From positions 3,472,001-3,536,000 of the forward strand of contig NZ_CP036319.1 in NCBI RefSeq assembly GCF_007752935.1: DNA of 64,000 nucleotides, written 5' to 3'. Every line of letters begins with the position of its first letter. Positions within the stretch are counted from its first letter, which is position 1. Source of the DNA: Crateriforma conspicua (lineage in GTDB: Bacteria > Planctomycetota > Planctomycetia > Pirellulales > Pirellulaceae). Shown piece by piece: positions 22,400 to 25,203 of this stretch. Both the position numbers and the translations under genes were made by a program. The notes beneath the pieces were generated by a model, which ran no database searches, was not told the origin of the DNA, and saw nothing but the letters and a program-made list of their open reading frames with translations.

Positions 22400-23026
22400 C
22401 CGGCGGCTTTCGCCACCGGCAGGAGGATGCCGGCCTTCCAGGCCTTTCAGGGCGAGTGTCAGTTGAGGGCTTTGTCGGGTCCCAAGCCGCGAAGCGGCGA
22501 CAGATTCCTGCCGGCGGCGCCAGCCGCCGGTATGGAAGCCCATGAGTACCAGTCCCGAAGGGACGGCAGCGTTAGAATTCTGGCATGTCCTCCTCAACCA
22601 GGAGATCAGCTTGCCGGGCACCCACCATCAGCTGCTGTATCACTTCGTCTTCAGCACCAAGAATCGGCGACCGTACCTGCAACCAGAAATGAAGGATAAG
22701 ATTTTTGAATATCTCGGTGGAACCGCACGAGGACTCGGTGGAGTTCCGATTCGAGTCGGCGGACATGTTGATCACGTGCACCTGCTGGTCAAGCTAACCA
22801 CCAAACACTGCATCGCCGACTTCAAAGGAGTCGTTCGAGGACGAGTATGTGCGATTCTTGCAGAGGCATGGGATCGAGTACGATCCTCGTTACCTTTGGG
22901 ATTGACCGGAAAGAATGCTATCGACCCTTCGGGTCTGGATTGATGGCGGGGCTTTCGGATCCGGTGGCTTTCGCCACCGGCAGCCTGCTGCCGGCCCTCC
23001 GGGTCTTTCAGGGCGAGTGCCATGTC
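22400..23026 (+). mobile_element. decayed IS200/RAYT-type element, copy B
   Basis: Second copy of the element, about 98% identical to copy A by eye, with about ten base changes and no length difference over the shared core. Perfect hairpins lie at 22511-22530, 22552-22564, 22923-22935 and 22961-22980, and one with a single mismatch lies at 22400-22419, just after the esterase stop. It ends about 30 bases from the 3' end of the tRNA-Leu gene. With copy A in direct orientation 2.86 kb away, it brackets the esterase gene. Confidence 0.8.
22542..22905 (+). pseudogene. IS200-like (Y1/RAYT) transposase, internally deleted and frameshifted, copy B
   Basis: Same structure as copy A, with the same deletion junction after HCIADF. 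The C-terminal tail reads in the +1 frame at 22825-22905 (KESFEDEYVRFLQRHGIEY then DPRYLWD and stop). The HUH motif is kept (DHVHLLVKL) but the catalytic-Tyr helix is absent. In the first frame translation runs on to 22943 without family similarity. The shared junction shows the deletion happened before the element was duplicated. Confidence 0.85.
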
Positions 23027-23057
23027 ACACCCCGAACCCAAAGGTTAGAGAAATCAA

Positions 23058-23143
23058 TGCGGCCGAGAGGACTCGAACCTCCACGCCCTGAAACGGGCAC
23101 CAGATCCTTAGTCTGGCGCGTCTGCCAGTTCCGCCACGGCCGC
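23058..23143 (-). tRNA. tRNA-Leu, anticodon AAG
   Basis: Reading the minus strand gives a full class II cloverleaf: 7-base acceptor stem GCGGCCG/CGGCCGC, D arm with GGAACTGGCAGAC, anticodon stem CCAGA/TCTGG with loop CTAAGGA, a long variable arm (GCCC/GGGC) and T arm GGTTCGAGTCC. The long variable arm and A discriminator (base 23058) mark leucine. By position the anticodon is AAG, which would need A34-to-inosine editing to read CUC. The 3' CCA is not encoded. Confidence 0.92.
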
Positions 23144-23284
23144 AAATGATTCGTGGGGGCAGCAAATCGATCAAGAGTTTGGCAGATTCCGCCGGTGCGT
23201 CAACGCCAGCGGTGTTGGTGGATCGCCGAAGTCGCGGGAAATCCGTGGCCGCGTTCCGTTGGTGACAATCGCAGGGATTTGGCG

Positions 23285-25018
23285 TCAATAAACGTGGTTG
23301 CCGAAATCGATCCGCCGCACGCGACGGCCCACGGCGACTTCCGCATGGTCCCAGCCGACGTTCAGCCGGACATCGCCGCCGGAAAATTCGCGGATCGTCC
23401 AGCCACGTCGAGCGGCCGGCGTGTTCGACGGCGGTGCGGCGGCACGCTGGATTCGCTTTTCTCGATTCGCCAGCGATTCGTCAATCGCACCTTCGGTCAA
23501 CTGGCGGAAATAGCCGTCGTCGGACAGTTCGTGATACCTGAGATCGATCTTTTTCTTTTGAGACCAGCTGGCACCCGCACCTTGTCGTTCGATCAGCCAG
23601 CGTTTGGTCAGCCAATCGATCTTGCAAATGGCCGCCGCGAAATCGTCGGCGTCGTGTCGGTAATTCACCAAGGCGTCCAGCAATGATTGCCAGGATGACG
23701 TGATCCGCAACGCTTCGCCGCGGACATTGGCCGGCGTTTGATCAACGAACTTCTGGACCGCCGACAGATAGGCTTGCTGGATCTCCAGTGCCGACATTTC
23801 GCCACGGTCCGTCGCAACCCGCTGTACCAAATGCCAATCACGGCTGATCTGGCGCAACGCGGCAATCGGGCGACGCAAACGGGGCAGCGAATCGGTTTCG
23901 CCTTGTTCGATCATGTCCATGAGCAGGGAAACGGATCCGACTTTGACGTATTCGGCCATTTCCGACATGTTCGAATCGGACAGCCCAATTTGCAGCCGCT
24001 GGCGTTTACGGAACAGCCGCAGCGTTCGCCTCCACGAATCAATCGACTTGCCACACAATTGGCTGAACCAGTGGCCATAAACGAACACGGGGCGTTCGCC
24101 GCTGAACCCGCCGATGTCGGCCAACCGATTGATCACCGACGCCTTAGCGGACAGATAAAAACGTCCTTTAGCGTCCAATTCACCCGCCCCGCCATAGGTG
24201 ATTCGGGTGATCAGCAATGTCGTCAGGTATTGCCGTTGGCGTCGAAACGCGACGTGTCGACCGACAAAACGCAGCCCCCATGCGATCGGATAGTGCGTCG
24301 CTTGGATTAGCCCCATACAAGGGGACCGGATCAAACGTGGGATCGCCAAATATGCCTGGGTGGTACTGGGATCATCGTTTCCGCGGCGGCGTAGCGTCCA
24401 GATTTGAATGACGGTTGCAAACAACAACAGAGCGATCAGTGGTGATGCGGCGATCGCGGCGGCGATCTGTGTCATCCACAGTGCAGCGATGCACAGCCGG
24501 TAGACCCACAACCATGCGCCTTCGGCAACGTCGGCTTCGTAGTTTTCTTGACAGCCATAGACGTGTCCGAGCCCGTCCGCGTTGTTCTTCAAGATGCGTA
24601 AGTCGGCTGCAACATCGCACTTCGAAGCCGCGTCGCGAACCATGTCATCGACGACACGCTGGCTGGCCAACAGATCGCTGGGCGAACGGACTTCCGGCGT
24701 CGCCATTTCGACCAGCCCGCCGGGGACGTCCTGCAACAACGGATGAGCTTCGAAGGTGACCGAGCTGCCGTTGCTGAAGAACACCTGGTCACCGTCGTGC
24801 AGACCGATCGCCGAGGGACGCGATTGACGCATTGCCGAGACGATCGACCGATAGACGGACTTGGCCGACGGCAGCATGCGGTCCAAATCGGTCAATTGGT
24901 CGTGCACCAACGACGCATATTCCGTCTCCATGCCCATCAAACGCGACGCCAACATGTCGCTTTGAAAGGTATCGGTATTCTGCGACCGGCGACGAAGCTT
25001 GGTGGCCGAAGTGTTCAT
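23285..25018 (-). CDS. PafA/Dop-family protein ligase with membrane-segment insertion
   Basis: A 577-residue homologue of the Pup ligase PafA and deamidase Dop, glutamine-synthetase-fold enzymes that activate a C-terminal Glu with ATP. Family signatures in order: MGMETEYA (28-35), VEMATPE (103-109), LKNNADGLGHVYGCQENY (143-160), SDSNMSEMAEYVKVGS (347-362) and, near the C-terminus, KIDWLTKRWLIERQ with IDLRYHELSDDGYF. Between the second and third ATP-site regions is an insertion of about 80 residues containing a 35-40-residue hydrophobic stretch (170-208), probably one or two membrane helices, which PafA and Dop lack. The start overlaps the small upstream gene by ATGA; Met22 is an alternative start closer to PafA. 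No proteasome or Mpa gene lies nearby. Confidence 0.88.
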   Translation of the reverse strand: MNTSATKLRRRSQNTDTFQSDMLASRLMGMETEYASLVHDQLTDLDRMLPSAKSVYRSIVSAMRQSRPSAIGLHDGDQVFFSNGSSVTFEAHPLLQDVPGGLVEMATPEVRSPSDLLASQRVVDDMVRDAASKCDVAADLRILKNNADGLGHVYGCQENYEADVAEGAWLWVYRLCIAALWMTQIAAAIAASPLIALLLFATVIQIWTLRRRGNDDPSTTQAYLAIPRLIRSPCMGLIQATHYPIAWGLRFVGRHVAFRRQRQYLTTLLITRITYGGAGELDAKGRFYLSAKASVINRLADIGGFSGERPVFVYGHWFSQLCGKSIDSWRRTLRLFRKRQRLQIGLSDSNMSEMAEYVKVGSVSLLMDMIEQGETDSLPRLRRPIAALRQISRDWHLVQRVATDRGEMSALEIQQAYLSAVQKFVDQTPANVRGEALRITSSWQSLLDALVNYRHDADDFAAAICKIDWLTKRWLIERQGAGASWSQKKKIDLRYHELSDDGYFRQLTEGAIDESLANREKRIQRAAAPPSNTPAARRGWTIREFSGGDVRLNVGWDHAEVAVGRRVRRIDFGNHVY

Positions 25019-25203
25019 TCACCCGCCTGCGCGACGTCGCTTCGCAGCACGTACTGCCGCGGCTCCACCGTCGCGTCGATACGGATGCGGGTCAAAATCT
25101 CGACCCGACGTTCGGCCGATGTGGTGGTCGCAGATGCGACGTTTTCACCTTTCGATGCGGCATCGGTGTCCGCAATCGTCTGACTATCCGTGGCATTTTC
25201 CAT
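25015..25203 (-). CDS. candidate Pup/UBact-like small modifier protein
   Basis: A 62-residue protein, about the length of Pup (64 in mycobacteria). The first 31 residues are Ala/Ser/Thr/Asp-rich and low complexity, as expected for a disordered tail. The second half is charged (SAERRVEILTRIRIDATVE) and it ends RSDVAQAGE. A C-terminal Gly-Glu is what PafA-type ligases join to lysines, and UBact proteins also end in Gly-Glu. The stop codon overlaps the ligase start (ATGA, 25015-25018), so the two are made together. A GGGGAA tract lies upstream of the ATG but at long spacing. Similarity to Pup outside the end is weak; it could instead be an unrelated small leader protein. Confidence 0.65.
   Translation of the reverse strand: MENATDSQTIADTDAASKGENVASATTTSAERRVEILTRIRIDATVEPRQYVLRSDVAQAGE

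Follow-up and report, generated by a model that had tools for sequence, protein, structure and literature searches.

UBact is a family of Pup-like tags found in non-actinobacterial bacteria. For planctomycetes, Pup genes that were unannotated in Rhodopirellula were predicted by Iyer, Burroughs and Aravind (2008; PMC2588565), whose text places Pup outside the actinobacteria in verrucomicrobia, nitrospirae, deltaproteobacteria, and planctomycetes. The same study described membrane-inserted Pup ligases in Rhodopirellula and Plesiocystis that have no link to the proteasome, contain four transmembrane segments inserted after core strand 4, and were predicted to have a membrane role; a linked membrane-protein gene was noted at these pairs, and Pup was stated to neighbor PafA in all organisms with PafA. 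Proteasome-free pupylation with pup directly before pafA is also described for corynebacteria in passages of PMC3511204. A literature search, outside which subscription papers and preprints mostly lay, found no later or experimental work on these planctomycete systems; single-copy planctomycete relatives serve as an outgroup in part of a 2020 paper (PMC7947786), and Rhodopirellula is mentioned in passing in part of a 2010 essay (PMC2837639).

We analyzed a stretch of 64,000 nucleotides (the window) from the genome of Crateriforma conspicua (G000; 7.18 Mb, single contig, 99.74% completeness), for which a sequence-only reading had proposed a two-gene Pup/UBact-like modification locus without a proteasome. 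Both ORFs were confirmed on the minus strand and share an ATGA (Table 1), which suggests that tag and ligase may be translationally coupled; a 4-base overlap occurs in 3 of 46 adjacent pairs, including those of the window and the same-genus genome G011. A divergent methyltransferase gene lies upstream of the pair and a tRNA-Leu downstream, and the immediate neighbors (the tRNA-Leu, an IS200-like ORF, the methyltransferase, and an oxidoreductase) include no membrane-protein gene. The IS200-like ORF (22542-22940) is short and of the transposase type (Y1_Tnp, 43.1 bits).

Table 1. Coordinates of the putative tag and ligase genes in the window, and of small ORFs from loci with two tandem divergent PafA-family proteins
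Feature	Position	Strand	Description
Putative tag protein gene	25015..25203	(-)	62 aa, ends Gly61-Glu62 (...DVAQAGE)
Pup-ligase-family enzyme gene (PafA/Dop relative with hydrophobic insert)	23285..25018	(-)	577 aa; PF03136
ATGA overlap: tag stop / ligase start	25015..25018	(-)	read in DNA
Ligase insert, ~93 aa (residues ~161-253)	24260..24538	(-)	profile alignment and hydropathy
Glu90 codon of ligase, at place of PafA Asp64	24749..24751	(-)	profile alignment
tRNA-Leu, 3' of ligase	23057..23144	(-)	ARAGORN; outside the system, marks its boundary
Small ORF ending RRRN[SRQT]SG[QE]	L093:10373-10606	(-)	
Small ORF ending RRRN[SRQT]SG[QE]	L094:8384-8674	(-)	
Small ORF ending RRRN[SRQT]SG[QE]	L095:1862-2101	(+)	
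Small ORF ending RRRN[SRQT]SG[QE]	L096:10529-10732	(+)	
Small ORF ending RRRN[SRQT]SG[QE]	L224:2837-3100	(-)	

Like the pairs of Iyer et al. (2008), the window has a small G[EQ]-ended gene beside the ligase, a ligase insert after core strand 4 that is predicted from hydropathy to be transmembrane, and no linked proteasome genes; unlike them, it lacks an immediate membrane-protein neighbor, which R. europaea has after its ligase. The locus shares with actinobacterial pupylation a PF03136 enzyme, the GhExE and QxN motifs, and a protein of about 60 aa with a C-terminal Glu. In contrast to that system, the ligase has a long insert and a Glu for the catalytic Asp, the tag falls outside the Pup profile, and no Dop, Mpa, or proteasome was detected in the genome. 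As in Corynebacterium, the tag gene directly precedes the ligase and proteasome subunit genes are absent, but corynebacteria keep the proteasomal ATPase according to passages of PMC3511204, whereas no Mpa was found in the window genome. The sequence-only reading had left open whether the locus was already catalogued; its kind was predicted in 2008 (PMC2588565), and novelty is limited accordingly. New relative to that paper are a branch with unlinked tags, genome-wide co-occurrence of tag and ligase, Glu-only tails across 46 tags, and an Asp-to-Glu change. On the evidence set out below, we consider it likely that the pair is a two-component, proteasome-free relative of pupylation.

The larger protein matched PF03136 with 255.9 bits (cut-off 25) over model positions 1-440 of 441, and all of the PafA/Dop-family motifs named beforehand are present: MGMETEYA at residue 28, KNNADG at 144, YGCQENY at 154, SDSNMSE at 347, and KIDWLTKRW at 466. 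The Pup-ligase active-site motifs GhExE and [HQ]x[NH] given by Iyer et al. (2008; PMC2588565) are found as GMETE at 29-33 and QEN at 157-159. Across 50 relatives with linked or unlinked tags, 33 columns are invariant, and the catalytic-type columns are also kept in the ligases of the unlinked-tag clade. In the profile alignment, Glu90 stands opposite a D of PafA 4b0t and an N of the PafA-Pup entry 4bjr, at the place of Asp64 of C. glutamicum PafA, which we take to be the catalytic residue; the Asn of 4bjr is presumably an inactivating change of this Asp. Of 41 other ligases, 98% have Glu at this place, as do 16 of 16 tested from the wider clade of the window. The window ligase thus has Glu where characterized PafA and Dop enzymes have the catalytic Asp, a conservative change that we count against the preferred reading.

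Scores of the enzyme were below cut-off for both the PafA equivalog TIGR03686 (150 bits, cut-off 551.3) and the Dop equivalog TIGR03688 (124.5 bits, cut-off 492.3). The family profile A3 scored Dop 4b0r (E 1.8e-69, 237.7 bits) above PafA 4b0t (E 1.9e-52, 181.5 bits), an order that weighs against a ligase and would suit a single Dop-like enzyme that removes or edits the tag, or both ligates and removes it. However, no second PF03136 gene was found in the window genome, which leaves a Dop-like enzyme without a separate family ligase to make its substrate, and deamidation would be unnecessary with every adjacent tag ending in Glu; we regard this role as improbable. With a single PF03136 gene found, read here as the ligase, no Dop is detectable in the genome.

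A feature absent from the sequence-only description is a hydrophobic insert inside the ligase. In the follow-up analysis, about 93 residues separate YGCQENY from the following shared block, which starts at residue 254; Dop has one residue there, the profile alignment placing the gap between its residues 160 and 162. The insert is absent from PafA and Dop and is hydrophobic in its first half. At least one hydropathy segment falls in the insert in 58 of 58 rows (window and divergent L103 included), and two or more hydrophobic segments were counted in 47 of the 58 proteins, a few of these segments lying outside the insert. Only one segment (1.72) of the window ligase exceeds the threshold, against the four described by Iyer et al. 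(2008), which we count against the preferred reading. We take the insert as a membrane anchor predicted from hydropathy, and the ligase probably sits in the membrane. The location of the insert directly after the active-site strand with YGCQENY would also fit a non-lysine amine as acceptor, for example an aminolipid head group, in which case the membrane itself would carry the tag; ligation of small amines is known among relatives of the enzyme fold (PMC2588565). We think such an acceptor quite unlikely; characterized PafA enzymes use protein lysines, which argues against it.

The smaller protein, as the sequence-only reading stated, is 62 residues long and has a C-terminal Gly-Glu. Its N-terminal part is variable among relatives, and the C-terminal ~30 aa are conserved. 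We built a profile, A2, from the last 36 residues of 38 of the 46 adjacent tags (window row included); nearly all rows share an Asp, an aromatic residue (Tyr or Phe) eight positions further on, and the GE end. Conservation of the terminal Gly-Glu had been set beforehand as a check: GE closes 38 of 38 A2 rows, and the 46 adjacent tags read by script are Glu-ended in 46 cases and Gln-ended in none, Gly being in both counts the selection criterion and E or Q being left open. The window tail is AGE and the commoner tail of relatives is GGE, which is counted against the tagging reading. The profile matched the window copy, itself one of its 38 rows, with E 1.1e-10. The tag of G011 is identical to that of the window in the last 27 residues, and over the whole tag 7 codons differ synonymously and 4 change the amino acid (dN 0.041, dS 0.179).

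The designation Pup/UBact-like holds as a probable working mode and not as Pfam membership. The window tag matched no family in Pfam and NCBIfam, and at E up to 10 it matched neither the Pup model PF05639 nor the UBact model PF20513, the latter setting it apart from UBact. The window genome as a whole gave no PF05639 match, with 1 of 14 control genomes (presumably C. glutamicum) over the cut-off, and its best PF20513 match (14.4 bits, cut-off 27.8) is located away from the tag. The C-terminal Gly-Glu or Gly-Gln that characterizes Pup is present in the window tag, and an end-to-end hhalign comparison with C. glutamicum Pup gave E 0.0021 (single comparison) with a probability of 13%, which would weakly support a common origin of tag and Pup. 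As a match to Pup this is not significant, and we count it against the preferred reading.

Co-occurrence, a further check set beforehand, was assessed across the window's family in a sample of 119 genomes that includes G000. PF03136 matched in 60, from which we set aside G107 and G115 (divergent proteins only) and G088 (72% complete, with a fragment of 95 residues); the remaining 57 have a full-length or nearly full-length ligase, that of G105 in two frames. An A2 search of the 119 genomes found the tag tail in 57 of 57 ligase genomes compared with 0 of 62 others. The 57 consist of 56 genomes with a match reaching the last A2 position at E ≤0.05, a limit chosen after inspection of matches listed to E ~0.53, and G003, whose tag is split over two contig ends; in G092, which has no ligase, three partial matches under E 0.05 lie in long frames and stop short of the profile end. 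Among 60 distinct ligase ORFs, a Gly-Glu-ended small ORF lies just upstream in 46, the tag at L015 (G003) is cut by the contig end with the same tail visible, and no adjacent tag was seen for 10 ORFs, the two G105 pieces, and the divergent L103. The ligase of G105 / Rhodopirellula maiorica is in two frames in the assembly (L091:2175-4063, L144). Circularity affects the linked cases in part, since the A2 profile was made from linked tags; independent evidence comes from the 11 genomes whose tags are unlinked and did not enter the profile. G006, G072, and G102 have two ligases each with two adjacent tag matches, and those of G072 are of different types, one ending VVPDGGE and the other NTQQQGE, next to ligases that fall in different parts of the ligase tree.

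The conserved tail and this co-occurrence support the proposal that the small protein is the putative partner of the ligase. A chance frame unrelated to the ligase, which the shortness of the ORF and its lack of a curated-family match would allow, was rejected by the same two observations together with the retention of the tag when unlinked and dN below dS, and is very improbable. The correlation between tag and ligase distances has an r of 0.78 across 55 loci (reached by 0 of 2000 shuffles) and of 0.32 across the 10 unlinked loci only (reached by 58 of 2000); shared descent confounds this correlation, and we therefore do not count it as evidence of contact. A conserved third partner gene was also rejected in a survey of ORFs of at least 90 aa within 7 kb of 71 ligases: among the 28 largest clusters, the two widest occur in 14 and 13 loci at scattered positions and the others in at most 7.

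The ligase has no adjacent tag ORF in 11 of the 57 genomes. The first impression, tag loss in a sister clade, was rejected by the genome-wide profile search, which found tags elsewhere: an A2 match reaching the last position is present in each of the 11 (E 5.3e-8 to 0.0475, the weakest at 0.04-0.05). In 11 of 11 cases a stop directly follows Gly-Glu and the tail reads N[TV][GSR]xDGE, in 8 of them in the form NTG[HYLI]DGE. In G174, a genome of the phylum sample without PF03136, an A2 match of E 3.9e-4 lies inside a 781-aa frame; the E-value alone would thus not carry the weakest unlinked tags, and the shared tail and stop do. In G055, a single contig, the tag is ~1.8 Mb from the ligase. In a tree of 71 ligases, 10 unlinked survey loci and three named loci without a tag at the adjacent position (R. 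baltica BR-MGV, Roseiconus, and Rubripirellula obstinata) form one side with support 100/98, and their sister group contains the window, G011, and the linked R. europaea copy (support 97/88). Separation of tag and ligase would most simply be explained by one event. In contrast to the rule that Pup always neighbors PafA (PMC2588565), the tag does not lie beside the ligase in the sister clade of the window ligase, an exception known from the present data alone.

At the R. europaea locus L140, the tag and then the ligase are followed first by the gene of a protein with three hydrophobic segments (L140:7840-10506(+), 888 aa) and next by a second gene (L140:10507-12531(+), 674 aa), the last two without a Pfam match; the 888-aa frame possibly corresponds to the linked membrane-protein gene noted by Iyer et al. 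(2008). Homologues of the two genes that come after the ligase at L140 (48-51% identity) follow the unlinked tag in G046 and G091, where the ligase is elsewhere, suggesting that in these genomes the tag stayed and the ligase left. No neighbor is common to the window locus and any unlinked-tag locus, and the 11 unlinked-tag loci contain no ligase remnant better than E 0.67.

The absence of prcA, prcB, and Mpa-like genes, noted by the sequence-only reading for the window, extends to the whole genome with the models used. PF00227, which matches all four archaeal controls, gave no match in the window genome at E up to 0.001. The bacterial 20S beta model gave none there either, a weaker test with no control genome over the cut-off, and the best match of the Mpa model (146.5 bits, cut-off 504.75) is of the generic AAA kind given by 14 of 14 controls. 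Two PF00227 matches, as alpha and beta subunits would give, were found in 0 of the 57 ligase genomes; single matches in these genomes are what we take to be HslV or similar. Pup ligases usually serve a proteasome, which would favor ordinary pupylation with a proteasome whose genes lie elsewhere in the genome. The results obtained for PF00227, 20S beta, and Mpa in a 99.74%-complete genome, together with the family-wide count, led us to reject a hidden proteasome; ordinary pupylation is refuted for the window genome unless its proteasome is too divergent for these models, and we give it hardly any weight.

Lack of a PF00227 match in the window genome suggests lack of HslV too. Neither this genome nor G011 has such a match, compared with 88 of the 119 family genomes, and HslV seems absent from both. 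Weak PF00227 matches occur in G013, G037, G055, G059, and others, in frames of ~244-331 aa; these presumably resemble Anbu rather than HslV.

Beyond the family, a scan of GTDB species genomes yielded 387 stretches encoding ligase relatives, of which the best 80 of 387 were kept. Among 48 of these best 80, an adjacent tag was present in 21 and absent in 27. Twenty of the 27 (L120-L139, three of them in the ligase tree and some presumably the same contigs as survey genomes) show 44-50% identity to the window ligase, like the unlinked clade, and L143, L144, and L155 are cut or broken. No adjacent tag was seen at L189, L195, L198, and L199, the start being unfixed in three, and these loci are counted against the pairing. 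GGE-ended adjacent tags are found in two Thermoanaerobaculia records, one further Acidobacteriota record, Paraliomyxa (Myxococcota), and Ca. Uabimicrobium. A sample of 246 genomes of the phylum contained PF03136 in 29 and a tag match (A2, E ≤0.01) in 11; besides the window, 6 of 10 tag matches lie beside a PF03136 gene, and the other 4, in frames of 172-781 aa of genomes without PF03136, are presumably due to chance.

Other loci of the Pup-ligase type were observed during these surveys. A different small ORF, conserved and ending RRRN[SRQT]SG[QE], occurs at loci that encode two divergent PafA-family proteins in tandem (Table 1). The tandem enzymes match PF03136 (L094 and L096 tested), and the small ORFs have no Pfam match at E up to 1. 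This system coexists with the membrane-ligase pair in G098, G009, G024, and G042, each of which has at most one PF00227 match. A small ORF ending SGE lies near a single divergent Pup-ligase-family gene in G107 and G354 (L098:5725-6093(-) / L225:943-1317(+)). At L204 and L207 (G155 and G199, of other planctomycete families), the ligase match breaks in two around profile position 360-370, which would fit an additional insertion, and nearby small ORFs end in VPAGGE or SPGGGE. L200-L203 (G134, G131, G168, and G169) hold the highest-scoring PF03136 pairs of the phylum sample, in genomes without a 20S beta model match, and L200 has a small ORF ending EGGQ.

For membrane insertion, catalysis, the acceptor, and the fate of tagged proteins in a two-component relative of pupylation, we infer the following scheme. 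The hydrophobic insert would hold the ligase at the membrane, where the enzyme would use ATP to activate the side-chain carboxylate of Glu62 of the tag; the enzyme would then join the activated residue to an amine, the likeliest being that of a protein lysine on the cytoplasmic membrane face. No deamidase would be needed, since the tag already ends in Glu. In a genome without Dop, the tag would be permanent or removed by the same enzyme, and with no proteasome or Mpa found, it would be a signal or would hand proteins to another protease. FtsH, a membrane protease, is a candidate for receiving tagged proteins.

A wider reading, which we advance tentatively, is that the pair represents one branch of a widespread system free of proteasome and Dop, in which a membrane ligase might tag lysines of membrane proteins or even aminolipid head groups to mark localization or signaling and not degradation, with a modifier family distinct from Pup and UBact. 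Ubiquitin-like tagging is usually seen as a step to the proteasome, and a ligase that has a hydrophobic insert and a tag of its own, but no detectable proteasome, Mpa, or depupylase, raises the question of what the tag is for. The conserved two-protein set and the existence of cultured hosts such as Rhodopirellula make this question directly testable.
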